Below are positions 5,516-19,159 of a stretch of 34,980 nt of DNA, piece by piece. Location of the stretch: positions 1-34,980 of the forward strand of contig JAETTM010000053.1 of the NCBI GenBank assembly GCA_021769135.1, read 5' to 3'. Source of the stretch: Lachnospiraceae bacterium (GTDB taxonomy: Bacteria; Bacillota; Clostridia; Lachnospirales; Lachnospiraceae). The notes under the pieces are model-generated. The model saw only the letters and a program-made list of their open reading frames with translations, was not told the DNA's origin and ran no database searches. Made by a program: the position numbers and the translations under genes. Within the stretch, counting starts at the first letter, position 1. Each line of letters starts with the position of its first letter.

Positions 5516-5594
5516 CCTTTAGGCTGAGAGAATATTCTGAACATATATTCCACTCAAATCCTATTGCACCGCGCCGGAATATTCTCTCAACCCC
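5516..5594 (-). repeat. Structured intergenic repeat, copy 1 (internally deleted)
   Basis: The outer arms GGCTGAGAGAATATTC (5522-) and GAATATTCTCTCAACC pair. Between them, TTCAAATCCTNTTGCACCG-like sequence matches one side of the copies at 8346 and 18908, in reverse orientation. The central hairpins of the full copies are absent. It lies about 19 bases after the stop of the TauE/SafE gene. Confidence 0.65.
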
Positions 5595-5612
5595 CATTCC
5601 CGGTTCCAATCC

Positions 5613-6323
5613 CTACCCCACCAACTGCACCACTCCCATAACCCCAATCATCCCATAAACAAACCAGTTCAGCATCTTACGGCTGATTTTCTTAAACACT
5701 CTGAATCCCAGGAAAATGACCGGAACCACAACGATTAGGCCGATTGCGGAATACTTCCAAACCTCTGCCGTCACATTCCCCCATAAGAGATGCAGCACAA
5801 AGTTATAAAAAGAAGTAATCAAAAAGGTGGCCTGAACCGTGGCCAGGTATTCCGTGTTATCCTTGCAGGCTTTCAAATAATAAAGCACTATGGGCGGCCC
5901 TCCTACGTTAAATGTGTTTAAAAATCCGCCTATCAGCCCGGCAATGATTCCGTTTTTGGCAGAGCCTTTGATGGAAATCCTTTCCCGGAAAAATGCGAAG
6001 AAAATTGCCAGCCCAATAAGCACCGCCCCCAAAGCCTTGGATAAAACTTTCTCGTTAACCGAAAACAAAACCTTCGTTCCTGCCGTTTGCGCCAGGAAGC
6101 TGCACAGCACCACCGGCATTAACAGCTTCCATCTCACATGTTTCGCCACGCGGATGCCTAACTGGAAATTCACCGCTACGGATAAAAGGGCCAATATAGC
6201 CACCGCCTTTTTAAACGGCATTATCATCGGCAAAAGGGCAATGGCAAAAATCCCAAAACCGAATCCGGTCAGGCACTGCCCAAAAGCGGCCGCACCTAGA
6301 ATGCATATAAAGGGTATCATCAT
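5613..6323 (-). CDS. TauE/SafE family membrane permease
   Basis: The 236-residue protein has about eight hydrophobic segments in two similar halves, each opening with the family pattern: GQCLTGFGFGIFAIALLP near the N-terminus and GGFLNTFNVGGPPIVLYY in the second half. TauE/SafE proteins move organic or inorganic anions such as sulfite, sulfoacetate or related compounds across the membrane. The start at 6323 is 8 bases after AAAGGAGG, which itself lies in the last codons of the upstream GH13-like gene (3-base gap), so the two are coupled. In this sugar locus it might export an acidic product, but the substrate cannot be told from sequence. Confidence 0.8.
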   Translation of the reverse strand: MMIPFICILGAAAFGQCLTGFGFGIFAIALLPMIMPFKKAVAILALLSVAVNFQLGIRVAKHVRWKLLMPVVLCSFLAQTAGTKVLFSVNEKVLSKALGAVLIGLAIFFAFFRERISIKGSAKNGIIAGLIGGFLNTFNVGGPPIVLYYLKACKDNTEYLATVQATFLITSFYNFVLHLLWGNVTAEVWKYSAIGLIVVVPVIFLGFRVFKKISRKMLNWFVYGMIGVMGVVQLVG

Positions 6324-6326
6324 ATC

Positions 6327-8312
6327 TTATCCCTCCTTTATCACATACTGCCACGGCTGCAGCAGTATCGTTGCCGTCCTTTCGCAAGCCGGAATCACTA
6401 CATGAACAGTCTTTTCCTTCCCTTCCAGATTTCCGCAATACAAAAGATATTTCCCATCCTTTATCCACACAACAACTGCCGTCTTTCTTCCCTCTTCCCC
6501 TAAAGCGTATGCCATTTTTCCATGTTCCCATTCATCCCAGCGATAGCCGCTGCGCTTTTTGAGCAGTTCCCTGTAGGCTTCCTCCAATTCCGTATCCGCC
6601 CCTTCATAAACCTGCACGCCGTGCCCCATAAACATCGCTGCCCCAAGCATGGCCAAATGGGCACCTTTGCCGAAAATCTCTCTGTCAAACTGGCTGCCAA
6701 GAGCCAACATCCACTCCGTGGATTTTCCGGTATCAGGCCCGGTGATAAAAGCCGTTCCTTCCGGCATAGCCGCTGCATATTCCTGATACCATTCCATATA
6801 ATCCTGCCAGGAAAGCGTATTTTCACATATATAATTATGGAAGCATTTCAGCGTTTCCCGCTTATCCACCATGGGCGCTAACCCCCATCTGGCCCAATGG
6901 GGCGGATAAGCAATGGTATAATCATGGTATCCCGCCGCCTCCGGGCCTCCCGACTGTCCGATAAAAAATACTTCCGGGAACTCCTGCCCCAATGCTTTTT
7001 TCACCCTTTCCATCATGCGTATTCCCGCGGTAATGGATTCGTAAGGCCGTTTTCCTTCCCCGGGCTGCCAGTTGGCATGAGCATTCCACATTTGGGCATC
7101 CAGCAGAAAGCCGTCCGCCTTTGCCTCTCTGCAGTAGTAAAGAAGCGCCTCCACCAAATACTTTTCATAAGCTTCGGACGCAAAATCGAATGCCCTTAAA
7201 TAAGTCCTCCTTATATGGCCTGTTTCATGATATCCATACAATTCCAGCCGGTCTAAAATGGGCGATTGGGGCAAATCCACCCTTTCCGTATCATATTCGC
7301 TGACTCCTCTCTGGGGGATTTCCAAAATCAACTTCATCCCCATTTCATGAAGCTGGAAAGAAAGTTCTTTCAAGCCCTCAAGGCTGTGATAGGTAATATC
7401 CCCATCCATTAAGTCATGCACCGCCCATCCCGGCCATGGGAAATAAGGCGCCAGCATCAGCGCATTATACCCCTGCGCTTTGATTTCCGGCAGTTTGCGG
7501 AATAAATCATCGTATCCCGGATAAGGCATCCGCAGCTGCTTCGCCCCCAGCGTCACTTCCCGTATCCGCAATTCCTCACGCTTCCGCCCTCCTGTTTTAT
7601 CCGTCTCTTCCTCCCTAACTTCCGCCTCCCATAGCGACCTGGACACCTTCCGAACCGCTTCTGTTCTCGTTCCCCTTATTTCCCCTATATAAAATGTTCC
7701 GAAGTCCAGCTCATCGCCCGGCTGCAAAATACACGGGCAGTAAAAAGTTTCATCCCTTAAAATTCTGTTTTCCTTTTTAGCGAACAAAGTAATTTCCGAA
7801 TAGAAGTTATCGTTTTTATTCCAAGCCAGAAAAGCCTGTTCCTTTTTCGGGTTATAAATCCCCACAATGCCGGGCAATTCCGCCGGTGCCAGATTTTCTT
7901 CCAGGGTAAGCAAATCATTCTTCCTAAAATCTGCTATTTTCCTATGTACATCATAGCCTTCCAGCATCCCCGGCCGATATCCCGGCGCCAGCACTTCCCA
8001 TTCCCTTCCATCCATAGGAAGTTCCAGATGCCAAATCAAAGTACGTATCCTAAGAGGCTCCTCCCCCCTATAAATCAGCTTCCACGTCTTCCCCTCCCAT
8101 TCTTCCTCCCAACGGGAAACGCTTACCACCTCAAACTTTTCCAGCCCAATTTTCCTGCTCCCCACAATATTCCTCAGCTGCCTCTTCGAATTATTACTGC
8201 TCTTCCCCCCAACCTCCACAGAAAAACCCTCTACCCTGTCTTTCCAATATACTTCACCCAAAACAACCACGCTCCTTTTCGCCAATCCAAATATAAAACT
8301 TTTCTTTTCCAT
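6327..8312 (-). CDS. GH13-like protein with lost catalytic residues
   Basis: The 661-residue protein is a paralogue of 8532-10703, with an N-terminal beta-rich region (about 1-245), a TIM-barrel alpha-amylase-like domain and a C-terminal beta domain. Aligned with the paralogue, the nucleophile Asp is kept (Asp405 in GFLLDAQMW), but the acid/base site YTETNG becomes IGQSGG (450-455) and the HD motif SHDYHERT becomes TGKSTEWM (528-535). Region I also changes from DVVLHG to EIPQRG. It is therefore probably not a normal GH13 hydrolase; it may bind glycans, assist its paralogue, or use another chemistry. The start at 8312 was chosen for AAGGG 6 bases upstream; the longer frame runs into repeat copy 2. 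Confidence 0.75.
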   Translation of the reverse strand: MEKKSFIFGLAKRSVVVLGEVYWKDRVEGFSVEVGGKSSNNSKRQLRNIVGSRKIGLEKFEVVSVSRWEEEWEGKTWKLIYRGEEPLRIRTLIWHLELPMDGREWEVLAPGYRPGMLEGYDVHRKIADFRKNDLLTLEENLAPAELPGIVGIYNPKKEQAFLAWNKNDNFYSEITLFAKKENRILRDETFYCPCILQPGDELDFGTFYIGEIRGTRTEAVRKVSRSLWEAEVREEETDKTGGRKREELRIREVTLGAKQLRMPYPGYDDLFRKLPEIKAQGYNALMLAPYFPWPGWAVHDLMDGDITYHSLEGLKELSFQLHEMGMKLILEIPQRGVSEYDTERVDLPQSPILDRLELYGYHETGHIRRTYLRAFDFASEAYEKYLVEALLYYCREAKADGFLLDAQMWNAHANWQPGEGKRPYESITAGIRMMERVKKALGQEFPEVFFIGQSGGPEAAGYHDYTIAYPPHWARWGLAPMVDKRETLKCFHNYICENTLSWQDYMEWYQEYAAAMPEGTAFITGPDTGKSTEWMLALGSQFDREIFGKGAHLAMLGAAMFMGHGVQVYEGADTELEEAYRELLKKRSGYRWDEWEHGKMAYALGEEGRKTAVVVWIKDGKYLLYCGNLEGKEKTVHVVIPACERTATILLQPWQYVIKEG

Positions 8313-8345
8313 CCCATACCCTTCGCCCTCCAACTCCCATACCTC

Positions 8346-8536
8346 AATAACTTTGGCTGAATCTACCCACAATATATTCTGTGAAAAGCCTTCTGCACCG
8401 TGGAGTCAAGACCATAGGAATCAGGAGGGTCTCTGCCCGAGTGATTCCTGCTCTACTGGGCTTGACGTAACGCCCGGTGCAACAGGATTTGAACAGAATA
8501 TATTGCGGGAAGATTCCCTCAGCCTAAAGTTTCACA
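8346..8536 (+). repeat. Structured intergenic repeat, copy 2
   Basis: Terminal arms AACTTTGGCTGA and TCAGCCTAAAGTTT pair, followed inward by an AATATATTCTG/CAGAATATATT stem, a GCACCG/CGGTGC stem, and a core hairpin GTCAAG...CTTGAC, GGAATCA...TGATTCC, GGGT-CTCT-GCCC. The core is shared with the copy at 18908-19159. The right end overlaps the TGA stop of the GH13 gene at 8532. Strand is given for the orientation in which the core pairs best (a U-G pair). Confidence 0.75.
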
Positions 8537-10703
8537 TCCCATTTCTCACCATCAAGCAATCCGCCCCTCGCAAGTGCAGCGTTACTTCTTTCCCTGTCTT
8601 TTCCCGCAAATTCCACTCCCTTTGCCCGCCCGTATACAAATCCCATACTGCGCCGTCCTTCCAGATATCCTCTTCTTCAAAAGAAAGCCGCACCGCCTTT
8701 TCTTTTCTTTCCAGATTTCCTACAAAAAGGGCCCACTTATCCTGATAATTCCATAGCAGGGCAACCGTTTTTTCATCATCGCAGGACACTTCTCCCATCC
8801 GGCACGTTCCCCGGTAGAAAACTTCATCCTTTTCCCTTAAATTCAAAATTCTTTTATAATAATCCTCATTTCCTATCTGCGCCCCGTAATAGCTCATAAA
8901 ACCGCAATCCATAAATGCCGTCATCCCCACGAATACCCGGTGAATATCCTGCCCATAGATTTCCCTGCTGTACTGGCCGCCTATATACCTCGTCCTTTCG
9001 TGGTAGTCATGGGAATCAATATGGTTCACCAGAACTACCCCTTCCGGCATGGAAGCCTTCAATTCCTCATACCACTTGATATAGTCCGGCCAGGTCAGTG
9101 TATTTTCGATAATATAGTTAAAAAACAAAGAATACCCGCTGCGCACATCCTCCACCGGAGCCAGCGCCCCCCAAAGCGCCCAATACAAATCATAGTTGTA
9201 CCTGTAACTATGGGATTTGGACACCATAGAACCATTGGTTTCGGTATAAAATACTGTATTCGGATAGCGTCCGCAAACTTCTTCCCGGATTTTATCCGTC
9301 ATACGAATCCCCGCCAGCATCTGCTCGTAGGGCATACGGCCGCTGTTCCTATCCCAGTTGGGAAACATATTCCAATGCTGGGCATCAAACCGGAACCCGT
9401 CCGTTTTCAAATTTTCAATATATCCTAAAAGAGTTTCTATTAAATAAGAAACATATCCCGGATGAGACATATCGAAAGAATGGGAATACGTCTTCGCGTC
9501 CTTGCCGCTTTCGTGTTTGGCGTACCAGGGCGAGCCATTTAATGTATGGGGGGAATCCGCCAGCCCTACCACTTTGGAATCATATTCATAAGGGCCATGA
9601 AGAACCACATCCAAAATCACGCGTATTCCCAGCTTATGCGCCTCTTCAATCATCCGTTTCAAGCCCTCTTCGCTTCCATATGTGGTGTCCAAATCCCTCC
9701 AGTTGAAAACGGAATATCCCGGAAACGGAAAGCGGGGCATCACTTCGATTACATTAAATCCCATTTCACCAATCCGGGGCAGTTTTTCAATCAGCGCATC
9801 GAAATCCGGGAAGGGGGAAAGCATCAGTTTTTCCCCAATGGTCACTTCCATAATCTTAAAATTCCGGGCGGCAGGATAGTCTTCCACCTTCCTTGTCCAG
9901 ATTTTCTTATAACTGCTGCTGGCGGCCTTGATGGCATCCAGACGGGAACCTTCAAATATTCCATAATAAAACTCCTGAATTTCCTGCTGTTGCCCTTTTG
10001 TAAAATATCTGGGGCAATAAATATGTATGGTCCGTCTTAAACGTCCGCTCTCCCCGTTTCTGGAAAATCCAATTAGCCGCGCCGGAAAATATTCGCTGAC
10101 AAACCATCCCATATTGGCACAGCACCGCTCCTTGTCATAGCTGCCCGTAAGCCCGGAAAAGAAAACGGGATAAGGCTCCGCCCCTGTTACCACCAAATCC
10201 TCGCTCACATAATCCGAAATCGGCCTAAACGGCTTTAACGGTTCATAGAACGGAGGCTGGTATCCCGGTGCCAGGACTTCGCATTGTGTATAGTCCTCTT
10301 CTCCTACCCCGTCTGTCACCCAGCAGGCATACCGCATTTTCACCTCTTCCTCTCCATCATATCCGATGATGCACCTCTGCCTTACCTGGTTTTCTTCAAA
10401 ATAATATTTGCTCGTCAAAGTCCATCCCTGCTCCATCCGGGAAGTTATGACAAACACTTCTTCATCCTTTTCTTTCTCCATATCCGCGCTTAACAGACAG
10501 GTCTTTCTTCCGATTTCTTCGCAGCCCTCTATTTCGCTCATCTGCTCCTGGTTATTGTGAAGGCAGATACCTCCCGTAAAAAAAGTAAGCAATGGCGCTT
10601 TCTGGCAAAAAGCTGTATACCCTCCCTTTTTTAAACCGATTACCTGCCCGTTTTGTTCCTCATAAGTAAGTTCCCAATTTTTACGTTCTATCGTTTTTTG
10701 CAT
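8532..10703 (-). CDS. GH13-type alpha-glucosidase/amylase-like hydrolase
   Basis: The 723-residue enzyme has an N-terminal beta-rich region (about 1-280), then a GH13 barrel with recognisable conserved regions: region I DVVLHG (365-370), region II GFRFDAQHW with nucleophile Asp440, region III FYTETNG with acid/base Glu488, and region IV VNHIDSHDYHERT with His565 and Asp566. The set fits hydrolysis or transfer of alpha-glucosyl bonds. No signal peptide is present, so it should act in the cytoplasm on imported oligosaccharides. The start follows GGAGAG by a few bases. Its degenerate paralogue lies downstream after a structured repeat. The exact subfamily and substrate are not clear. Confidence 0.8.
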   Translation of the reverse strand: MQKTIERKNWELTYEEQNGQVIGLKKGGYTAFCQKAPLLTFFTGGICLHNNQEQMSEIEGCEEIGRKTCLLSADMEKEKDEEVFVITSRMEQGWTLTSKYYFEENQVRQRCIIGYDGEEEVKMRYACWVTDGVGEEDYTQCEVLAPGYQPPFYEPLKPFRPISDYVSEDLVVTGAEPYPVFFSGLTGSYDKERCCANMGWFVSEYFPARLIGFSRNGESGRLRRTIHIYCPRYFTKGQQQEIQEFYYGIFEGSRLDAIKAASSSYKKIWTRKVEDYPAARNFKIMEVTIGEKLMLSPFPDFDALIEKLPRIGEMGFNVIEVMPRFPFPGYSVFNWRDLDTTYGSEEGLKRMIEEAHKLGIRVILDVVLHGPYEYDSKVVGLADSPHTLNGSPWYAKHESGKDAKTYSHSFDMSHPGYVSYLIETLLGYIENLKTDGFRFDAQHWNMFPNWDRNSGRMPYEQMLAGIRMTDKIREEVCGRYPNTVFYTETNGSMVSKSHSYRYNYDLYWALWGALAPVEDVRSGYSLFFNYIIENTLTWPDYIKWYEELKASMPEGVVLVNHIDSHDYHERTRYIGGQYSREIYGQDIHRVFVGMTAFMDCGFMSYYGAQIGNEDYYKRILNLREKDEVFYRGTCRMGEVSCDDEKTVALLWNYQDKWALFVGNLERKEKAVRLSFEEEDIWKDGAVWDLYTGGQREWNLREKTGKEVTLHLRGADCLMVRNGM

Positions 10704-10745
10704 ACTCTCTCCGTTCTGGCGGCCTAATAAGGAAATACCGCCGGG

Positions 10746-11351
10746 TTAAATTGAATGAAGCATTGCGCTGGGCGCCACTCCGAACCGTCTCCGGAAGGCT
10801 CTGGAAAAGCTTTTCACTTCCTGATATCCTACCAGCGCCGCCACATCCTTCACTCGTTCTCCCCTGCCCAGCCTGTTTCTGGCCTCCTGCATACGCCGTT
10901 CGTATACGTATCTGGAAAAAGAACTCCCCGCCGCCTGACGAAACATTCTGGAAAAATAAGAATAATTCAGGTCCAAATGGTTAGCGATATCCCACATGCT
11001 GATTTCTTCCCCCAAATGGCGGTCAACATAAACTTTTGTCCAACGCACCGCCCTTTTTTCCCGATTTCCATTTTCTTCCCCGTCCTTCAGCAGCTCCGCC
11101 AGATAGCTTACGGCCTTTTGCCTATTTTCAAATTCTTCAAGAGCGCGCAGACGGATTCCTTCCCATCTGCCGCACTCTGCCCCAACCTTTAGCAAAACGC
11201 CCTGGGCAATGCCGAAATATATCCCGGCCAGCATTTCCCCTTCTTCCATCCAGCCAGTCAATATTTCCGCAAATTCCTCTTTCCTTTTTCCCCTTACCGC
11301 ATCTTCTATTTTCCGGTAAGTTTCTCCGTTCAAAATCCCGATTCCATCCAT
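10746..11351 (-). CDS. AraC/XylS-family transcriptional regulator
   Basis: The 201-residue protein ends in a two-helix-turn-helix AraC domain: ISMWDIANHLDLNYSYFSRM (first HTH) and VKDVAALVGYQEVKSFSRAF with RRRFGVAPSAM (second HTH). The first ~100 residues are helical (ETYRKIEDAVRGKRKEEFAE...) and lack the cupin fold of many AraC sensors, so it is shorter than usual. The start at 11351 lies 7 bases after AGAGG; ATG 11357 is an alternative. It sits between the aldo/keto reductase and GH13 genes, so it likely controls this cluster. A palindrome at 11393-11417 just upstream could be its own site. Confidence 0.85.
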   Translation of the reverse strand: MDGIGILNGETYRKIEDAVRGKRKEEFAEILTGWMEEGEMLAGIYFGIAQGVLLKVGAECGRWEGIRLRALEEFENRQKAVSYLAELLKDGEENGNREKRAVRWTKVYVDRHLGEEISMWDIANHLDLNYSYFSRMFRQAAGSSFSRYVYERRMQEARNRLGRGERVKDVAALVGYQEVKSFSRAFRRRFGVAPSAMLHSI

Positions 11352-11392
11352 TTCCATACCTCTTATCGGCATCAGTGGGCATAAAAACAATA

Positions 11393-11417
11393 ATTAATGT
11401 ACTACGATACCATTAAT
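11393..11417. promoter_or_regulatory. Palindromic operator-like site before the AraC gene
   Basis: ATTAATG (11393-11399) and CATTAAT (11411-11417) form a perfect inverted repeat with an 11-base spacer that is itself partly symmetrical. It lies about 42 bases upstream of the AraC start at 11351. No clear -35/-10 pair was seen around it. Confidence 0.35.
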
Positions 11418-11482
11418 ATACTGCCTCCGCTTTTTTTCGAAAATGGATGGAATCAGAGAGTATTCATGGACATTTCGGACTC

Positions 11483-12481
11483 TTACCCTTCTTTCGCGAT
11501 TTTATCAATTTGCTCCAGCTCCTGCTCCGAGAACTCCATATTGGCCAGGCACTTGCAGCTGTCCTCCAGCTGGGCTGTTTTGCTGGCTCCAATCAGCACC
11601 GAAGCCACCCCCTGGTACAACAGCCAGGATAATGCCATCTGGGCAAGAGTCTGCCCCCTTTCCCCGGCCAGCGCATTCAATTTTTCAATCTGATTAATCC
11701 TCTGGCTGGTAATCTGGCTCTTTTTAAGAAAAGGAGAAAGGCTGCGTCCTGCTCTGGAATCCTCAGGAATCCCGTTCAGATACCGGTTTGTCAAAAGCCC
11801 CTGGCATAGCGGGCTGTACGCAATCATGCCCAGCTTTTCCCTTTCCAGCAAATCCTTTAACCCATTCTCCTCCACCATTCTGTCAAAAATGTTATACATG
11901 GACTGATGAATTACAAAAGGCGTTCCAAGCCGCCTAAATTCCCCAACCATCGCTTCCGTCTCTTCGGCGCTGTAATTGGAAATTCCCACATACAGGGCTT
12001 TCCCCTGCCTCACCGCCGTATCGTAGGCATAGCATGTCTCTTCCACCGGCGTATTGGGGTCCGGCCTGTGGGAATAAAAAATATCCACATAATCCAGCCC
12101 AAGGTTTTTTAAGCTCTTATCGATACTGGAAAGGATATGTTTTCTGGAGCACCACTCTCCATAAGGCCCTTCCCAGGCATAATAGCCCGCCTTGGTGGAA
12201 ATTATCATCTCATCCCGGTAAGGCATCATATCTTCTTTTAACATCTGCCCGAAATACTTTTCCGCCGCACCTTTCGGAGGGCCATAGGTATTGGAAATAT
12301 CGAAATGGGTAATGCCCAAATCAAAGGCCTTATGAACCAGTTTCTTCATATTCCCATAGCAGTCATCCTGGCTGAAATTATGCCACATGCCAAGGGAAAG
12401 GGCCGGGAGCATCAGCCCGCTCCTGCCGCACCGCCTGTAACTCATTTTTTCATATCTGTTTTCATCTGCAAGATATACCAT
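11483..12481 (-). CDS. Aldo/keto reductase, YghZ/Gpr-like
   Basis: The 332-residue enzyme keeps the full AKR tetrad: Asp61 and Tyr66 in HFDISNTYGP, Lys97 in ISTKAG, His138 in FYSHRPD. The C-terminal SVLIGASKTAQLEDS is the NADPH-binding end of the barrel. The overall pattern (GLMLPALSLGMWHNF, GPPKGAAE, YSPLCQGLLTNRYL) fits the potassium-channel-beta-like/YghZ group that reduces small aldehydes such as glyceraldehyde 3-phosphate. It starts at 12481, 6 bases after GGAGG, and overlaps the end of the GH4 gene by 20 bases, so it is co-translated with it. In this locus it may reduce a sugar aldehyde or keto-sugar. Confidence 0.85.
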   Translation of the reverse strand: MVYLADENRYEKMSYRRCGRSGLMLPALSLGMWHNFSQDDCYGNMKKLVHKAFDLGITHFDISNTYGPPKGAAEKYFGQMLKEDMMPYRDEMIISTKAGYYAWEGPYGEWCSRKHILSSIDKSLKNLGLDYVDIFYSHRPDPNTPVEETCYAYDTAVRQGKALYVGISNYSAEETEAMVGEFRRLGTPFVIHQSMYNIFDRMVEENGLKDLLEREKLGMIAYSPLCQGLLTNRYLNGIPEDSRAGRSLSPFLKKSQITSQRINQIEKLNALAGERGQTLAQMALSWLLYQGVASVLIGASKTAQLEDSCKCLANMEFSEQELEQIDKIAKEG

Positions 12482-13808
12482 AGATTTCCTCCGTTTTTTT
12501 ATGGGCCAGCCATTCGTCCGCCAGCGCCTCCGCCGTATCCAAATCTTTCATCCTGTGGTCTCCCAGCAAATACAGCAGCAACGCATTGCGGCTGCGGGAG
12601 CGCATTACTTCCAGCTTTCTTTCCGCATATAGCCACCTCGGCATCATGGCATTTACGATAATATTAGGCGGCAACGGCGGTGCGGCGAGTAGTTCCACCC
12701 CCTTTCCATCCACCTTTGCCTGCCCTTCCACAACCAGGTTCTCCGGGAAATCCGGTAAAAAATACTTTTTGTTGGGTACATTTACCTGAAATACTCCCGG
12801 CTCGTCGTTGGCGATGGCATGAATCACAGGGATAATCTGCTCAGGGCTTTGCTTTGCATCCAGCGCTTTTACGATAGGCGTTTCCAGGTCACTTGCCGCC
12901 GCTTCGATTTGGCTCAATATATTGCGGCAGTTTTCCAGATGCAGCTTCCACCCGATTTCGGAATCGAATCCTCCTATTTTTCCATACCACTTCTGATTTT
13001 GGGCCAAATCCGTATGATACCACCAGCCCCCATGCCTGGGCGTATCGCCAATGGGCATTTTCCCAAATATCCGGTATTGATGGATGGCCCCCCGCGACAT
13101 CTGGTTATAATGGTATGGCCGGTTATCCAGTTCCCAATATTCTTTCGCCTTTTCCTCTATCCATTCGTCCAGAAGAGGATAAGCATCCTTTCCCTCATAG
13201 GTGAATTCATTCATCCACAGCCAATGGTTAAAGCCATAGCAATTGGCCCGCACCTTTTCCCTTTCCAGTCCAAGCACATCCGCCACCTGCAAATAGCCGG
13301 AAAAACCATGGCATAATCCAATCGTTTTAATGGATGAATTCCGCGCAATGTATGTTCCCCCTTCGAAAACCGGGTTCGCCGCCTGGATATGCCAAGCATC
13401 GGGGCATATCTCCTCCATTTTTTTTACCAGCATCAAAAAATAATTCATTTGTCCGAATTCATGCAGATTCGCCCCGCGGTACAGCCCATATTTTTCCGCC
13501 ATGGCTCTTTGTTCTTCCACCCATCCGTAGCCCCCTACCTGTACGGAATTAATCACAAAGTCCGCATCTTCCAGCGCCTTTTCCAATATGGATGTGCTTT
13601 CAATGATAAGGCCGGATTTCAATTCCTCTGCCAGCCTTTTGGCCACTATGGTGATAAATTCCAGACGCTTTTCATCAATATCCATCAGCACAACCCTGCT
13701 GCCCTTCAGCCCTTCGCACAGGCTCATATCCGTTACGATGTGGGAGGCAAACTGTGCGCTTCCGGCCCCCACCAGAACTACTTTTATGTTTTTATTATTT
13801 CGGCTCAT
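12462..13808 (-). CDS. GH4 glycosidase, CHG-motif (uronide-type)
   Basis: GH4 enzymes need NAD+ and a divalent metal and cleave by redox-assisted elimination. The 448-residue protein shows the N-terminal dinucleotide fold VVLVGAGSAQFA (10-21), ANPVF (144-148), the metal-binding CHG (166-168) and NCYGFNHW (189-196). In published GH4 subgrouping the residue pattern after the metal Cys sorts substrates; CHG is reported for alpha-glucuronidase and alpha-galacturonidase members. With KDPG aldolase and KDG kinase next door, a uronic-acid glycoside is the best guess. The start is set at 13808, 5 bases after GGAGG; 13811 is an alternative. It is the first gene of the leftward operon. Confidence 0.85.
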   Translation of the reverse strand: MSRNNKNIKVVLVGAGSAQFASHIVTDMSLCEGLKGSRVVLMDIDEKRLEFITIVAKRLAEELKSGLIIESTSILEKALEDADFVINSVQVGGYGWVEEQRAMAEKYGLYRGANLHEFGQMNYFLMLVKKMEEICPDAWHIQAANPVFEGGTYIARNSSIKTIGLCHGFSGYLQVADVLGLEREKVRANCYGFNHWLWMNEFTYEGKDAYPLLDEWIEEKAKEYWELDNRPYHYNQMSRGAIHQYRIFGKMPIGDTPRHGGWWYHTDLAQNQKWYGKIGGFDSEIGWKLHLENCRNILSQIEAAASDLETPIVKALDAKQSPEQIIPVIHAIANDEPGVFQVNVPNKKYFLPDFPENLVVEGQAKVDGKGVELLAAPPLPPNIIVNAMMPRWLYAERKLEVMRSRSRNALLLYLLGDHRMKDLDTAEALADEWLAHKKTEEIYGISCR

Positions 13809-13853
13809 CATTTCCTCCATTTCTTTGCTTACTTACGCTTATCTGTTTTCCCC

Positions 13854-13882
13854 ATTATACCGGGGGCATTTTTCCGGGGCAA
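13854..13882 (-). promoter_or_regulatory. Promoter of the GH4-AKR-AraC-GH13 operon
   Basis: On the minus strand TTGCCC (13877-13882), 17 bases, then a perfect TATAAT (13854-13859). The weak -35 fits a promoter that needs an activator. Transcription would start about 40 bases before the GH4 start codon. Confidence 0.6.
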
Positions 13883-13886
13883 TCCA

Positions 13887-13919
13887 CCGCACTTTACATA
13901 GGTAGCCGCATTTTACATA
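13887..13919 (-). promoter_or_regulatory. Direct-repeat activator site next to the GH4 -35 box
   Basis: Two copies of TATGTAAARTGCGG (minus strand; 13887-13900 and 13906-13919) are in direct orientation, 19 bases apart, ending 4 bases upstream of the -35 box. Tandem half-sites next to -35 are the usual layout for AraC-family activators. The AraC gene in this operon is the natural candidate. Confidence 0.5.
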
Positions 13920-13925
13920 ATAAAA

Positions 13926-13956
13926 GAACTGGAAAGAATATGCTTCTTTCCAGTTC
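13926..13956 (-). terminator. Rho-independent terminator
   Basis: An 11-bp perfect stem GAACTGGAAAG/CTTTCCAGTTC with a 9-base loop, followed on the minus strand by TTTTATTAT. It would stop leftward transcripts from the IclR gene just before the GH4 operon control region. Confidence 0.7.
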
Positions 13957-14240
13957 AAAAAGTCCATGAGGTTTTGCCTTCCCACCCTATAACTCCACAA
14001 TACTCGTTGGGCCAAGCAGGAAGTCATAATGGCAGGATTGTGTTATATAATGGCAGAAATGGAGTATGTATCTGCTAAAAACTGCATTATAATGATAAGC
14101 ATAAAAACAAAGCAGCTTTACAGAAGAACCTACATGCGCATAGTGTCATATTATGCGGGTGATTGTTAAAATGCTGATAAAGACTTTATCATAATGGGGG
14201 CTTGGCCATTTATTGGCCGGCCCCTCCCCCTTCTTTTTCA
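13957..14240. other. Gene-free stretch between GH4 and IclR genes
   Basis: Together with 13809-13956 this makes about 430 bases with no gene. Besides the features listed separately, ATAATGGCAG occurs twice, about 22 bases apart (near 14026 and 14048), a possible second regulator site. No credible reading frame was found. Confidence 0.4.
14197..14224 (-). terminator. GC-rich hairpin after the IclR gene
   Basis: GGGGCttGGCC pairs with GGCCgGCCCC across loop ATTTATT. It lies 17 bases after the IclR stop. The T tract is weak, so termination here is less certain than at 13926-13956. Confidence 0.45.
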
Positions 14241-15026
14241 TTAACCATCCGTTTCAAAATTCACATCCACACTTTGGAAAATATGCTCCAGACGCTGTTT
14301 GGAGTTTTTCAGCAGATGGAGGATTAATTCTTCCTTTTCCGCACTAAAGCGGAACACCGGAATCGCCACGCTGATAGCCGCTATTACCTTCCCGCCCTTC
14401 CTTAGCGGAACGGCAAGGCAACGGATATACTGTGTCGATTCCTCCGTTTCCTGGGCATAGCCGCAGGAGCGCGATGCTTCCAGCTGAGCGGCCAGTTCCT
14501 TGATATCCGTCACCGTTTTCGGCGTCAGCGGACGCAATCCATTAGGATAAAGCTTTTTTAAATCCGCCATAGAATAATCCGTCAAAAGCGCTTTCCCGAT
14601 TCCGGTGCTGTATGCGGGCAGACTATGGCCTACCGCCGCCACCATGCGAATGGATTCCGGGGAATCCGCCTTTGCGATGTAAAAGGCATCCCCGCCTTTT
14701 AATGTAGCAAAATAAGAAGTCTCGGAACAAACATTGGTAATATTGTGCAGTTCTTTGATTATCTCGTCGATAGCATCGAAATTTTCCAGATATGCATTCC
14801 CTATCTGAAATACATAGGAACCGATGGTATATTTGCCGCTGACCGTATCCAGAGACAAATACCCCCGGCCCACTAACGTATGCAGGATAGGCAGCATACT
14901 GCTTTTAGCCACATCCAGATGCTGGCAGGCTTCAGTCAGCGTGTACCCTGCTTTCCCCCCTTGCGCGATAAGCTCCAGGGCATCCAAAGCCCGGGCCGTG
15001 GAACGGTGTTCGTTTAAACTGGCCAT
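14241..15026 (-). CDS. IclR-family transcriptional regulator, KdgR-like by context
   Basis: The 261-residue protein has the IclR layout: an N-terminal winged HTH (RALDALELIAQGG, YTLTEACQHLDVAKSSMLPI, GRGYLSLD) and a C-terminal effector domain with STGIGKALLTDY, CGYAQETEE and CLAVPLRKGGKVIAAISVA. IclR proteins such as KdgR often sense 2-keto-3-deoxygluconate and repress uronate genes. It is divergent from KDPG aldolase and KDG kinase. Two matching operator-like sites lie just inside both transcription starts, which predicts repression of both genes including itself. The start at 15026 is 7 bases after AAGGAG. Confidence 0.9.
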   Translation of the reverse strand: MASLNEHRSTARALDALELIAQGGKAGYTLTEACQHLDVAKSSMLPILHTLVGRGYLSLDTVSGKYTIGSYVFQIGNAYLENFDAIDEIIKELHNITNVCSETSYFATLKGGDAFYIAKADSPESIRMVAAVGHSLPAYSTGIGKALLTDYSMADLKKLYPNGLRPLTPKTVTDIKELAAQLEASRSCGYAQETEESTQYIRCLAVPLRKGGKVIAAISVAIPVFRFSAEKEELILHLLKNSKQRLEHIFQSVDVNFETDG

Positions 15027-15048
15027 ATGAAATCTCCTTGCATTTTAT

Positions 15049-15073
15049 AAGAATCATATTCGTATTTACGTAC
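15049..15073 (-). promoter_or_regulatory. IclR operator-like site 1 (iclR side)
   Basis: AAGAATCATATTCG followed by TATTTACGTAC. It contains the palindromes GAAT-CAT-ATTC and CGTA-TT-TACG. The same 25-base pattern occurs at 15201-15225 with five differences. It lies just downstream of the predicted iclR transcription start. Confidence 0.6.
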
Positions 15074-15083
15074 TTTTAATATA

Positions 15084-15113
15084 AAGATAGCATAGAGGCT
15101 AAAATCTTGTCAA
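15084..15113 (-). promoter_or_regulatory. Promoter of the IclR gene
   Basis: On the minus strand TTGACA (15108-15113), 18 bases, TATCTT (15084-15089). The start would fall near 15077, directly before operator-like site 1. Confidence 0.5.
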
Positions 15114-15151
15114 TAGGACATGCTTTATGGTTGCGGAAATCATTTTTTCAG

Positions 15152-15180
15152 TTGCAACTTTTTCTTTTATATGTTATTAT
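15152..15180 (+). promoter_or_regulatory. Promoter of the KDPG aldolase-KDG kinase operon
   Basis: TTGCAA (15152-15157), exactly 17 bases, TATTAT (15175-15180). The predicted start near 15187 precedes operator-like site 2 and leaves a leader of about 110 bases. Confidence 0.55.
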
Positions 15181-15200
15181 AAGCCCATAAGTTCCAAATT

Positions 15201-15225
15201 AAGAATATAATTCGTATATAGGTAC
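15201..15225 (+). promoter_or_regulatory. IclR operator-like site 2 (aldolase side)
   Basis: AAGAATATAATTCG followed by TATATAGGTAC, with the palindrome GAAT-ATA-ATTC. It matches site 1 in direct orientation and lies just downstream of the aldolase promoter, a position suited to block RNA polymerase. Confidence 0.6.
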
Positions 15226-15298
15226 AATTATTTTTCTTCACAAGCGCAGCATTTCATTTATTGACCGCAAGAACAAAGGAGGGAATCGAAGAAAAATT

Positions 15299-15994
15299 AT
15301 GCATGGAGAACAAACACAGAAAGTCATTGACGGAATTCACCGTTATAAGCTGGTAGTCATAGTCCGGGGGATGGAACCCGCGCTGTGCCGACCGCTTTCA
15401 GAAGCATTGTATTCCGGCGGCATCCGCCTGATGGAGATTACTTTTGACCAGACAGGAAAAATACCTTTTCCCTCAACAGCAAAAGCCATTGCAGCCCTGA
15501 CAGCCATGTGGGGGGAGAAAATGCAGATAGGTGCCGGAACGGTGCTTTCCATAGAGCAGCTTTATATGGCGAAAGAAGCAGGTGCCCGGTATATTGTGAC
15601 ACCCAACACTAACCCGTTCATCATACGCGAGGCCAGAAAACTGGATATGGCCGTGCTGGCAGGAGCATTTACCCCTTCCGAAATCCAAACGGCCTATGAG
15701 GCGGGGGCCGATTTCGTAAAAGTATTTCCTGCCGCGGCCCTTGGGGCTTCCTACATAAAAGCAGTAAAGGCTCCCCTCGGGCATATTCCCATGCTGGCTG
15801 TAGGAGGCGTCAACGAAAAAAATATTCAGGATTTCTTACAAGCTGGCATGGATGGTGCCGGGGTAGGGGGAAACCTCGTCGATATGAAGCTGATCATGCA
15901 GGGAGATTATGATAAAATCACCGCATCAGCCAGACAATATACTGCCCTTGCCAGAGCAGGGGCTGCCCTTGCCGGGGCAGGGGCATCATTATAA
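15299..15994 (+). CDS. eda: KDPG/KHG aldolase (2-keto-3-deoxy-6-phosphogluconate aldolase)
   Basis: This class I aldolase splits 2-keto-3-deoxy-6-phosphogluconate into pyruvate and glyceraldehyde 3-phosphate, the last step of hexuronate breakdown. The 231-residue protein has the family's VIVRG strand, Glu46 in RLMEITFD, GAGTV (79-82), TPNTNP and the Schiff-base Lys141 in FVKVFPAA. The next gene is the kinase that makes its substrate. The start at 15299 is awkward: AAAGGAGGG lies 15 bases upstream, farther than usual, and no closer start codon is in frame except ATT. The C-terminus holds a 21-base tandem duplication giving ALARAGA-ALAGAGA. Confidence 0.9.
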   Translation: MHGEQTQKVIDGIHRYKLVVIVRGMEPALCRPLSEALYSGGIRLMEITFDQTGKIPFPSTAKAIAALTAMWGEKMQIGAGTVLSIEQLYMAKEAGARYIVTPNTNPFIIREARKLDMAVLAGAFTPSEIQTAYEAGADFVKVFPAAALGASYIKAVKAPLGHIPMLAVGGVNEKNIQDFLQAGMDGAGVGGNLVDMKLIMQGDYDKITASARQYTALARAGAALAGAGASL

Positions 15995-16029
15995 AAGCCG
16001 GAACAAAAACGGCAGAATGGAGGAACCGT

Positions 16030-17052
16030 ATGTCTAAAATAGTAACATTTGGAGAAATTATGCTTCGGTTGAATCCGGAGGGCTACAGGCGGCTGGTACA
16101 GGCGGACCGGCTGGAAGCCAGCTATGCGGGAGGGGAAGCCAATGTAGCCGTCTCCTTAGCCAATTATGGACACGAAAGCCTGTATGTGACCAAGCTGCCC
16201 GAAAATGAAGTAGGGCAAAGCGCCCTCAACTCGTTGCGCAGATACGGGGTTGATACCTCCCGGATTGTGCGGGGAGGAAGCCGAATAGGCATTTATTTTG
16301 TGGAAAAGGGAGCATCGCAGAGACCTTCCAAAGTCATTTATGACCGGGCTCATTCTTCCATCGCCGAGGCTTCCGGGGAGGATTTTGATTGGGAAACCAT
16401 ATTCGACGGTGCCGACTGGTTTCATTTTACAGGAATTACCCCTGCCCTTGGCGGAAATCTGCCGGAAATCTGCCTATCAGCCTGCAAAGAAGCCAAAAAC
16501 AGAGGCATCACTGTAAGCTGCGACCTGAATTACAGGAAAAAACTATGGAGCGAGGAGAAAGCGTGCGAAATCATGTCCGGCCTCATGCCCTATGTGGATG
16601 TATGTATCGCCAATGAAGAAGACGCGGCCTCCGTATTCGGTATTCATGCGGAACAAACGGATATCCTCGCCGGAACGCTAAGCCGCGAAGGCTATGAGAA
16701 AGTTGCCGGACAGCTGACGGAACGATTCCATTTCCAGTCGGTGGCCATTACATTGCGGGGAAGCATTTCCGCCAATGACAATCTTTGGTCAGGCATGCTC
16801 TATACCGGCGGCCAGGCCTATTTTTCCAAAGAGTATAAGATTCATATTGTAGACCGTGTAGGCGGTGGAGATTCCTTCGGAGGTGCGCTCATACACAGCA
16901 TGGCCAAAAAGCGTTCTCCCCAGGAAACCATAGAATTCGCCGTTGCCGCTTCCTGCCTGAAACATACCATCGAGCAGGATTTCAACCTGGTTTCGGAAAA
17001 GGAAGTACTCGCATTAATGCAAGGGAACGCATCGGGAAGGGTACAAAGATAA
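16030..17052 (+). CDS. kdgK: 2-keto-3-deoxygluconate kinase (PfkB family)
   Basis: The 340-residue protein is a PfkB/ribokinase-type sugar kinase: MSKIVTFGEIMLRLNPEG at the start, YAGGEANVAVSLANYG (substrate site, 32-47), CDLNYRKKLW (164-173) and the anion hole with catalytic base DRVGGGDSFGGALI (275-288, Asp281). GEIMLRL and GGGDSFGGA are typical of KdgK. It phosphorylates 2-keto-3-deoxygluconate with ATP to KDPG, which the upstream aldolase cleaves. GGAGG lies 6 bases before the ATG. It is 35 bases downstream of the aldolase gene and shares its promoter. Confidence 0.9.
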   Translation: MSKIVTFGEIMLRLNPEGYRRLVQADRLEASYAGGEANVAVSLANYGHESLYVTKLPENEVGQSALNSLRRYGVDTSRIVRGGSRIGIYFVEKGASQRPSKVIYDRAHSSIAEASGEDFDWETIFDGADWFHFTGITPALGGNLPEICLSACKEAKNRGITVSCDLNYRKKLWSEEKACEIMSGLMPYVDVCIANEEDAASVFGIHAEQTDILAGTLSREGYEKVAGQLTERFHFQSVAITLRGSISANDNLWSGMLYTGGQAYFSKEYKIHIVDRVGGGDSFGGALIHSMAKKRSPQETIEFAVAASCLKHTIEQDFNLVSEKEVLALMQGNASGRVQR

Positions 17053-17107
17053 CAACGGAGGCAGCTGAAAGGCTGAACCAATGTCATTTAGTTAATGGCG
17101 GCGGACG

Positions 17108-17163
17108 CTGCGAGAATAATAAAATCCTCAAAGGGCTCCTTGAGGATTTTATTATTCTCGCAG
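17108..17163. terminator. 24-bp perfect hairpin between convergent genes
   Basis: CTGCGAGAATAATAAAATCC plus TCAA pairs perfectly with its complement across the 8-base loop AGGGCTCC. It lies between the convergent kdgK (ends 17052) and ATPase (ends 17198) genes. It has no clean T tract after the stem, so it may be a bidirectional terminator whose A/T-rich arms supply the tract, or an RNase III-type structure. Confidence 0.55.
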
Positions 17164-17197
17164 CTGGTTAAGGTGTTAATGAGTACGGAGTACTTGT

Positions 17198-18601
17198 TCA
17201 GTTTTTTTCCATCGTTTTTAAAATATCATCATAGGTCACCAACATCACATTTCCCATCTTATTCGCCATATCCTCACAGCCTTTTGTAAATCCGTGTTTT
17301 GCAAACAATGCCAGATATGTTTTCTCATAATGAAACAACTGCCCGCGTTTTACCAACGTCTCCAATACTCCCGCATCCACTTTTTCATTGGTCCATTTGT
17401 ACTCGGCAAATAAGGCTGTATTTTTATCCTGTTCGCCCATAATATCGATTTCCTCCTGGCTGCGGGTAAAAGGGTTAGTGCCCCACCATCGCCCCAGTTC
17501 CCCAAATTCCACAGGGGATTGCCCTTCCAGCATCAGCTTCCACAAATACTGCCTGCAGATTTCCTCGAACACTTTTCCCATATAATCCGGCAAATGCGGC
17601 TCCATCCGCTTATAAGCGATATCCGCAGCTCCTCTGGCAATAATGGAATAGTTCTCCGGCACAAACCTATACCAGAAGCGGAACATATTGTCGTCAATAG
17701 CATAAATGGATTTCCGGGATGCTTTTTCTCCATAAGGCGTCTCCTTTCGGACAAGGCCAAGAGACATTAAGTTCTTCAAATAAGCGGTGCAGACGCTGGT
17801 ATCCTCCCCTACTTTGGTGGAAATCTCCGCCATCCGGGAAGAGCCGGTCGCGATTGCCGTAATTATTGCATTGTAAAGCGCCGGCTCCCTCACTTCCTGC
17901 TTCAGCAGATTCTCCGGCTCTTCAAAAAGGGATGATGTGAAATTGAAAAACGTATTCTTAATATTCTCCTCTATGCTCATCCTATCGTCCATCTGCAGCA
18001 AATATTGGGGCGTACCGCCCACTATTCCATAAATCAGCGCTTTATCTTCGCCGGAGAAATTTTTAAAATACCGGCTGGTATCCGCAAACTCAAAAGGCTG
18101 TATCTTCATCTGGGCTGTCCGCCTGCCATACAAAGGCGCTTTATAGGCCAGCACATAATCCTCCATGTAAGACATCGACGAACCGCAAAGGATTAACATT
18201 AATTTGGAATTATCTTTATGCTTATCAATCAGAAGCTGAAGCGTAGAGGCTAGGCTCTTGGAAGAGCGGGCCACATAAGGATATTCATCGATAGCCAGAA
18301 TCAGCCGTTCCTTCTTTGCCAATTGGAACACATATTCCAAAGCGGCCTGAAAGGACAGAAACGCCGTATCCGCCTGAATCCCCATCCCATACTCAAGAAT
18401 ATTTCTGCTGAAATTCTCCAGATTCTGCTTGGCATTGCTCTCCACGCCCATAAAATATATTGCCTTTTTATCCCTGATGAAATAATTAATCAACGCCGTT
18501 TTCCCCACCCGGCGCCTTCCATAAATTACCGCAAACTCAAATTTTCCCGATGCATATAATTTTTCCAGGGAATCCAACTCCCGCTCTCTGCCAATAAACA
18601 T
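17198..18601 (-). CDS. ATPase_2-type AAA ATPase with DUF234 nuclease-like C-terminus
   Basis: The 467-residue protein begins MFIGRERELDSLEKLY and has Walker A GRRRVGKT (28-35), Walker B LILAIDEYP (100-108) and sensor-like LILCGSS (136-142). A winged-helix region follows (about 240-300). The C-terminal part carries EEIDIMG...ALFAEYKW (Asp386, Glu400, Lys402), the spacing of a PD-(D/E)xK nuclease fold as in DUF234. This two-domain family is widespread in archaea and gut Firmicutes and is of unknown role, sometimes linked to mobile DNA. GGAGG lies 7 bases before the start. It is a single-gene unit; its upstream region is very AT-rich. Confidence 0.8.
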   Translation of the reverse strand: MFIGRERELDSLEKLYASGKFEFAVIYGRRRVGKTALINYFIRDKKAIYFMGVESNAKQNLENFSRNILEYGMGIQADTAFLSFQAALEYVFQLAKKERLILAIDEYPYVARSSKSLASTLQLLIDKHKDNSKLMLILCGSSMSYMEDYVLAYKAPLYGRRTAQMKIQPFEFADTSRYFKNFSGEDKALIYGIVGGTPQYLLQMDDRMSIEENIKNTFFNFTSSLFEEPENLLKQEVREPALYNAIITAIATGSSRMAEISTKVGEDTSVCTAYLKNLMSLGLVRKETPYGEKASRKSIYAIDDNMFRFWYRFVPENYSIIARGAADIAYKRMEPHLPDYMGKVFEEICRQYLWKLMLEGQSPVEFGELGRWWGTNPFTRSQEEIDIMGEQDKNTALFAEYKWTNEKVDAGVLETLVKRGQLFHYEKTYLALFAKHGFTKGCEDMANKMGNVMLVTYDDILKTMEKN

Positions 18602-18907
18602 ATTCCCGCCTCCATTTCTCTATATATTCTCCCGAAAACCCTCCATTCTTATTATATATATTACCATCACCTCAATTTTTAGTCAATTACAAATTAGTAA
18701 TATATAAATAACTAATTTACATATCACTATTTTTATTACTAATCATCAATTACCAATTCGCTGTCCCATCCTTTACCCACAATTAATTCAATAATTTATA
18801 TGCAAAAACTGCCGCTCCAGAATTCCCCATCCCTTTGCAGCAGTTTCCTCTATCTCTTATTTTTATTTCTTATCTTTATTCCTTTCTACCATCCCACTTT
18901 CAGGCAT
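18602..18907. other. AT-rich upstream region of the ATPase gene
   Basis: About 300 bases without a gene. The part from about 18650 to 18760 is strongly AT-rich with repeated TTAGTAAT, ATTACTAAT and TAATATATAA words that form imperfect palindromes. It likely holds the ATPase promoter. No single -35/-10 pair stands out. Confidence 0.35.
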
Positions 18908-19159
18908 TTGTGAAACCGATAACCTTGGCTGAATATTCTGACAATATAGTCTGTGAAAAGCCCTTTTGTGCATTTGTCCTAAGGGGATATCAGGCGAAGC
19001 CTGGTGGATTCCTTAGGACTATGAATCAAGACCATAGGAAACAGGAGGCCCTCTGGCCGAGTGTTTCCTGCACTATTGGGCTTGATGCAATGCCCGGCAC
19101 ATTGGGCTTTGAGCAGACTATATTGTCAGAATATTCTCTCAGCCTTACGGTTTCACAAT
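18908..19159 (+). repeat. Structured intergenic repeat, copy 3 (largest)
   Basis: Terminal arms TTGTGAAACCG and CGGTTTCACAA are perfect complements. Inside are a long stem GAATATTCTGACAATATAGT/ACTATATTGTCAGAATATTC, AAAGCCC/GGGCTTT, an extra hairpin GTCCTAAGG...CCTTAGGAC with inner ATCAGGC-GAA-GCCTGGT, and the core hairpin ATCAAG...CTTGAT, GGAAACA...TGTTTCC, GGCC-CTCT-GGCC. The core is shared with copy 2. The element ends 10 bases from the GH3 stop codon. Confidence 0.8.

Follow-up and report, generated by a model that had tools for sequence, protein, structure and literature searches.

A structured MITE family with a conserved, mismatch-bearing core in Lachnospiraceae, probably moved by an IS1182-like transposase

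Introduction

Structured MITEs are already known, and BOX and bcr are described, in the available parts of the sources, as confined to narrow host groups (PMC3049150, PMC6542083). The BOX repeats of Streptococcus pneumoniae are small and MITE-like: they have inverted ends, are flanked by target duplications and are predicted to fold into a stem-loop. BOX is modular (boxA-boxB-boxC) and almost absent from other streptococci (PMC3049150). In the Bacillus cereus group, the bcr1 repeat is mobile and non-coding, and its copies are predicted to share a structure (PMC6542083, PMC2267715). TTTAT motifs are linked to bcr mobility, and the B. cereus group is described as the sole host of the first bcr element (PMC6542083). 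ERIC and NEMIS-type repeats are likewise dispersed and carry predicted stem-loops, as the available part of PMC2267715 has it.

The element reported here, found first in a contig of a Lachnospiraceae genome, resembles these systems in being small, dispersed and folded. Compared with BOX, as far as the partial description of the latter allows, it is one unit with a mismatch-bearing core and occurs in at least 20 genera; compared with bcr1, it has a 16-bp TIR, 10-11 bp target duplications and Lachnospiraceae hosts. Its ends and duplication length match those of IS1182-like ISs of 1.75-1.80 kb, although it lacks a gene and, by eye, the interiors of the two share only the ends. It is a new family, set apart from BOX by description and from ERIC and NEMIS-type repeats by Rfam, through which the sequences were compared, and by their different hosts.

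Results

The window, that is, the whole stretch of DNA analysed, comprises 34,980 nt of Lachnospiraceae bacterium (GCA_021769135.1, contig JAETTM010000053.1, positions 1-34,980, forward strand); the source genome is referred to as G000 below. The window holds the following features:

8346..8536, + strand: copy 2, a full element whose TIRs are not intact
8389..8486, + strand: structured core of copy 2, the region aligned in alignment A3 (see below)
18908..19159, + strand: copy 3, a full element with worn TIR remnants
18973..19020, + strand: hairpin repeat nested in copy 3's core and belonging to a second dispersed family (90-98% identity elsewhere)
18906..18917, + strand: left TIR remnant of copy 3, ATTTGTGAAACC (by eye)
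19149..19159, - strand: right TIR remnant of copy 3 (by eye)
5516..5594, - strand: copy 1, a core-less remnant with a right-arm match on the minus strand (5521-5574)

Copies 2 and 3 exist as an earlier note on this DNA had described them, and both fold far better than dinucleotide shuffles (z of -8.3 and -13.0, respectively, on the + strand, and of -5.6 and -11.2 on the - strand). The compensatory changes that the note had read between them (GTCAAG/CTTGAC vs. ATCAAG/CTTGAT, GGAATCA/TGATTCC vs. GGAAACA/TGTTTCC, and GGGT/GCCC vs. GGCC/GGCC) are indeed seen in the sequence. Copy 1, which folds more weakly (z -4.1), was rightly said to have lost the core; it is a remnant, and what it matches is the right arm of copy 3, on the minus strand. 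Similarly, the extra hairpin noted in copy 3 is present but represents a separate dispersed repeat family nested in the core: on its own, it recurs at 90-98% identity at six other, stand-alone places of the genome (BLASTN), and one further copy of the element (C7:9553) carries the same nested insertion. All three copies had also been placed 20 nt or less from the stop codon of a minus-strand gene; the respective minus-strand ORFs end at positions 5613, 8532 and 19170, which puts the first at a distance of 19 nt from copy 1, the second 5 nt within copy 2 and the third 11 nt from copy 3.

The element is far more abundant than the three copies originally counted. A BLASTN search of the source genome with copy 3 returned 73 pieces, and a covariance model built from 19 of its own copies (R1; L001 and L002, which bear the insertion, and L029, a chimera, were omitted) gave 28 hits at E≤1, two of which are opposite-strand echoes, leaving about 26 places. 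The element was present in 9 of the 16 genomes of the genus, the source genome included. With a second model (R2), built from the 48 diverse cores of alignment A3, it was found in at least 24 of 397 genomes, and at least 20 of 334 genera, in a sample of the family, in at least 13 of 392 genomes in a draw from the order (all 13 Lachnospiraceae; the share of the 392 outside the family is not given), and in at least one of 398 genomes in a draw from the phylum, namely the source genome. These copy numbers and genome counts are lower bounds since the wide searches score ten candidates per genome and use stricter filters; at that depth, no match was obtained outside Lachnospiraceae in the order and phylum draws. 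R1 confirmed, among other carriers, Lachnospiraceae bacterium 28-4, IMSAGC_002 and a MAG with the label Hespellia, and in another MAG, G016 (ERR6760096_bin.74), we recorded 45 elements with both ends among the loci read, R1 finding the core in most of these loci, where cores were not checked singly. A blastn search of plasmid and phage collections with copy 3 gave no match, three stretches with the core pattern in viral contigs did not match R1, and in the core-pattern scan no R1 match at E≤1 came from other phyla (80 of 93 stretches scored, L111-L123 left out, plus the three viral ones).

No credible correspondence to a known RNA family was found in Rfam either. The window yielded no match at gathering score, whereas a match to a known family would, according to the earlier note, have refuted its reading, and a search of 20 related loci at E≤1 yielded five matches, all under the gathering score and none credible (four to microRNA precursors, all from one long-armed copy, and one weak ribozyme). 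In the accessible parts of the published literature, no description was recognised as this element, the candidates in the supplements of one survey aside. A coding function was considered as well, one + strand frame being often open, and was provisionally set aside because one-base length differences between copies shift the frame.

The conserved part of the element is a core of about 100 nt. Read on the + strand from the tip outward, it starts with a short hairpin capped by a CUNU-type loop and with a tandem G.A/A.G, followed by a variable but paired apical stem and an asymmetric loop (AUA against UGCUUUACU in the source genome). Next come a short stem that ends with an A.G mismatch, a stem of six pairs, a GGA/GGA motif and a stem of three pairs, which reads CAT/ATG or else CGT/ACG, CAC/GTG or CGC/GCG. 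A bulge of four bases then leads to a GUGC/GCAC-type stem, outside which lie the long flanking arms. This structure was assessed on alignment A3, obtained from 101 elements that a 93% redundancy filter reduced to 42, minus L063, L093 and L232 and plus nine hand-chosen ones, for a total of 48. The proposed pairs are paired in 93.1% of 1323 cells vs. 77.4% in shuffled alignments (reached in 0 of 500 shuffles), a measure on which the structure favours itself because it was drawn by hand from the same sequences. Twenty-four of 28 pairs have changed on both sides (17.7 when shuffled), the covariation score is 0.505 vs. 0.221 when shuffled, and slid structures reach no more than 43.2% paired; the number of further pair types was not above shuffles (50 vs. 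50.3). Many further copies thus do covary, and the structured reading that had been offered for the three window copies is borne out in 48 cores, action as RNA and as single-stranded DNA both being possible.

The mismatches within the core hardly vary. G16.A85 is found in 47 of the 48 cores, A18.G83 in all 48, A25.G76 in 44 and G39.A54 in 45, while A40.G53 is found in 37, the remaining 11 having G.A there, as would subfamilies in which the motif is shifted by one column. The conserved GGA motifs could alternatively be a duplex-binding sequence. As DNA, the + strand of three cores folds with z of -4.3 to -4.7, and two of the three fold about equally well on either strand. Within the core helices, G.T cells outnumber A.C cells (27 vs. 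13). When whole elements are counted, in contrast, there are as many G.T as A.C cells (272 vs. 269), whereas G.A exceeds C.T (561 vs. 247), these counts being sums over cells that are not independent; a second set gave G.T 41 vs. A.C 23, mostly owing to near-identical copies of one genome (G192, 21 vs. 9). The comparison of G.T with A.C as a strand test is therefore mixed. That is, the plus-strand fold proposed earlier is favoured by the conserved G.A pairs and the mild G.T excess of the core helices but not by the elements as a whole, and we read the core as folding on the + strand. The equal G.T and A.C counts over whole elements speak against plain RNA selection on the arms.

The arms behave differently from the core. 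In two of the five genomes tested, they are nearly unrelated between copies yet 92-95% paired within them: the nine copies of G248 have arms that are 92% complementary within a copy while left arms are only 51% identical between copies (41% when shuffled) and cores 82% identical, and the corresponding values for the five copies of G123 are 95%, 61% (46% when shuffled) and 91%. This contrast is absent in G334 (76% within vs. 83% between copies), G192 (78% vs. 91%) and G000 (84% vs. 81%), as expected if the copies in these genomes have spread more recently. We read these patterns as arm complementarity being kept largely at the DNA level.

The evidence for mobility comes mostly from G016, where the ends of the element are sharp, consisting of a 16-bp TIR, TAGGTAATTGCGAAAC, and its complement. 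With up to two mismatches allowed, this TIR occurs 69 times on one strand of that assembly and 66 times on the other, vs. 3 and 3 for the reversed control. In a set of 48 elements with defined ends (45 from G016 and one each from L032, L043 and L048), 42 are exactly 215 bp long and all are 202-216 bp; flanking direct repeats of at least 8 bp, mostly 10-11 bp, occur in 29 of the 48 vs. 1 of 2256 mismatched flanks, leaving 19 elements without a duplication of that length. At the window's own copies, whose ends are worn, no clear target duplication was seen, and the syntenic gap in a relative (G006) that lacks copy 3 is not a clean empty site. Based on the TIRs, the target duplications and the short length of the G016 elements without a transposase gene (judged by length), the class of the element is MITE, and it is not filed under IS1182, BOX or REP.

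A possible autonomous partner was found through the same ends. When viral contigs were scanned for the 16-bp end, 14 stretches came up; in three of them, a second end lies at a distance of 1756-1796 bp, with a transposase gene between the two. A protein search added three more complete ISs, one on a viral contig and two on plasmids of named Lachnospiraceae, Roseburia sp. 831b and Butyrivibrio proteoclasticus B316 (transposase relatives at 79.6% and 66.7%, respectively). Together, these are six distinct ISs of 1752-1796 bp with both ends matching those of the element (one end with 0-1 mismatch and the other with 2-4). Three of them are flanked by exact duplications of 10, 11 and 14 bp, and a fourth (L467) has a near-exact one by eye. 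The two transposases scanned both contain DUF772 and one contains DDE_Tnp_1; both are closest to the IS1182 model NF033551 of NCBIfam (E of 3e-19 and 3e-20), and since their scores (69.1 and 72.6 bits) are under its cut-off of 270, we name them IS1182-like only. No transposase relative was found near solo ends in 18 regions of G011, G001 and G000 or in 14 regions of G192, G407 and G348, and tblastn of the transposase against 487 sequences matched only viral contigs and no stretch of a carrier genome. Judging from the matching ends and the duplication length, the mobiliser is most likely the transposase of this IS1182-like IS of about 1.76 kb.

The same kind of core was also found between other ends. 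In a subfamily of G015 it lies between GATTCGGGTGTCAAAAGG, and exact 7-bp duplications flank 7 of 13 elements with both ends recognisable (of 16, three were dropped for poor ends) vs. 11 of 156 in the control, which is high because the targets resemble each other; viral contigs yielded no ends of this second kind. Copies in G334 end, by eye, in ACTAATTTGCT-like repeats. Since the same core occurs between different ends, it appears to have changed vehicle. We tentatively suggest that the core of about 100 nt may be an independent folded module carried by at least two, probably three, unrelated sets of ends (TAGGTAATTGCGAAAC, GATTCGGGTGTCAAAAGG and ACTAATTTGCT-like), with arms that need only be complementary. 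If so, the core would persist beyond the vehicles that carry it, as a folded module that is either selfish or used by the host and that acts as RNA or single-stranded DNA.

Finally, we assessed the genomic context of the copies, with neighbour orientation taken from a simple ORF-based call. Of 20 copies in the source genome, 14 have genes antisense to the + strand on both sides and one has the opposite arrangement, and among 55 further copies the counts are 26 vs. 5 (one copy with a spanning ORF is included in the former set and four in the latter). The pooled copies of other genera (39 of 40; L342, at a contig end, was left out) showed no such bias (10 vs. 11), so the bias belongs to the source clade. 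When 36 loci from G003, G005 and G006, some with short flanks, were compared, 2 of the 26 own loci had a shared site, and the element was retained at both. At one of these sites, one pair has changed on both sides and is still paired, two have changed on one side without loss of pairing, and one is broken (P = 0.03 for random placement); at the other, the counts are three, three and four, respectively (P = 0.0004).

Discussion

Our results indicate that the feature is very probably a structured MITE family of Lachnospiraceae, moved, as the matching ends suggest, by an IS1182-like transposase acting in trans. The MITE-like option among those that the earlier note had offered is thereby upheld by TIRs, a near-fixed length and target duplications in a related assembly, together with ISs that carry the same ends. 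According to this model, a young full copy is about 215 bp long and consists, as observed, of 16-bp TIRs, two long complementary arms and the core of about 100 nt. The IS1182-like transposase would bind the termini in trans and place the element in AT-rich intergenic DNA, where 10-11 bp would be duplicated, both steps being suggested by the matching ends and the duplication length. After insertion, the arms would drift yet stay paired, most plausibly through template switching combined with selection, while the core is maintained as a hairpin with imperfect pairing, in which the + strand would form the conserved G.A pairs. The core most likely folds single-stranded, as RNA or DNA, and may thereby help the element to persist or move.

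Alternatively, the core could be a functional RNA, e.g., one that the host uses for regulation or as an RNase III-type processing hairpin, its spread being secondary, which is compatible with mobility. A core with non-Watson-Crick pairs conserved across at least 20 genera, the G.T excess of its helices (27 vs. 13), the two orthologous sites that retain the element with doubly changed pairs, and the strong orientation bias in the element's own clade (14 vs. 1 and 26 vs. 5) are consistent with such a role. However, presence is patchy (24 of 397 genomes, a lower bound), the orientation bias is gone in the pooled other genera, whole elements show no G.T excess, shared sites account for only 2 of the 26 own loci (36 loci compared, some with short flanks), and broken pairs occur at the shared sites too (one and four). 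On balance, we consider a host-used RNA somewhat unlikely.

The fold might instead serve transposition as single-stranded DNA, with the arms joining the ends during replication and the core acting as a protein-binding hairpin, again compatible with mobility. Such a role would account for arms that pair without a fixed sequence (in G248, 92% within a copy, 51% between copies and 41% when shuffled) and for the folding of the three cores as DNA (z of -4.3 to -4.7, + strand), and G.A motifs can form in DNA too. Against it, two of these three cores fold similarly on both strands, the arms in G334, G192 and G000 are as alike between copies as within them, and DDE transposases normally act on duplex ends; hence, we regard this possibility as rather doubtful.

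It is also conceivable that the element is an ordinary MITE without selection on its fold, the pairing of arms and core being no more than the outcome of template switching within a quasi-palindrome. When it takes place between inverted repeats, such switching is described as able to generate stems, to restore them and to make arms more alike (PMC8794818, PMC8604942). The equal G.T and A.C counts over whole elements and a chimeric copy at G000:C80:23741-23923 (by eye) fit this view. Nevertheless, this mechanism would erase mismatches and asymmetric loops, yet both are near-invariant in the core; therefore, the mismatches call for a separate explanation, of which selection on the fold is the simplest, and we find an explanation by template switching alone unlikely.

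A REP/BIME-like element moved by a Y1 (RAYT) transposase, the partner of REP/BIME elements and another option raised at the outset, would also be palindromic, intergenic and multi-copy, but we set this origin aside as highly improbable because of the target duplications, of which we know of none for REP/BIME elements with RAYT, and it agrees neither with the long TIRs nor with a DDE-type candidate partner that has the same ends.

The preferred reading, a structured MITE family probably moved by an IS1182-like transposase, places the same mismatch-bearing core in at least 20 genera of one gut family. Arms that, in some genomes, pair without being similar between copies provide a natural test of whether compensatory change arises by selection or by template switching, and the element also tests whether small repeats carry a functional fold. 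Finally, our results yield a candidate transposase to be tested and a model for annotating such repeats.

Genes and repeats in the window

The two full copies of the structured MITE lie at the ends of minus-strand genes, and copy 3 encloses a second, separate dispersed hairpin repeat of the TTTGTCCTAAGG...CCTTAGGACT type:

8532-10703, minus: gene for an alpha-amylase-domain protein, ending at copy 2
18973-19020: second hairpin repeat, nested inside copy 3
19170-21290, minus: family 3 glycoside hydrolase gene, ending at copy 3

The second hairpin repeat also stands alone in the window's own genome (C7:19859, C92:20026, C20:24376, C146:70533, C135:25226 and C58:18756) and is found at 16 places, among those listed, in genome G013. 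Elsewhere in the window, a 184-bp direct repeat (722-905 and 2459-2642, 79% identical) overlaps or neighbours two minus-strand ORFs, neither with a Pfam match at E<=1e-5, and perhaps reflects paralogous genes.

Variant copies and shared ends

One copy in the window's genome (L029, C80:23741-23923) is chimeric as read by eye, with an inverted right half followed by the apical hairpin and a second right half, an arrangement that could be the product of inter-copy recombination or template switching. A copy in genome G003 (L228:653-906, on G003:C4) has very long G/C-rich arms and matched microRNA precursor models at scores below their cut-off, models that are misled by long hairpins. In G015, whose subfamily carries the same kind of core between different ends, another palindromic repeat, AGGAAATTGCAGAGCAATTTCCTATGAT-like, directly adjoins some elements (L203, L208, L210, L213 and L218).

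The 16-bp terminal inverted repeats, which also bound the ~1.76-kb IS1182-like insertion sequence, are paired at other spacings as well (G001, G005, G006, G011, G407 and G192), namely about 49-60 bp, 115 bp at locus L291 (where the sequence, as read, lacks the core) and, as a spacing between ends, 318 bp in G192. Therefore, several small elements seem to have this set of ends as a common vehicle.
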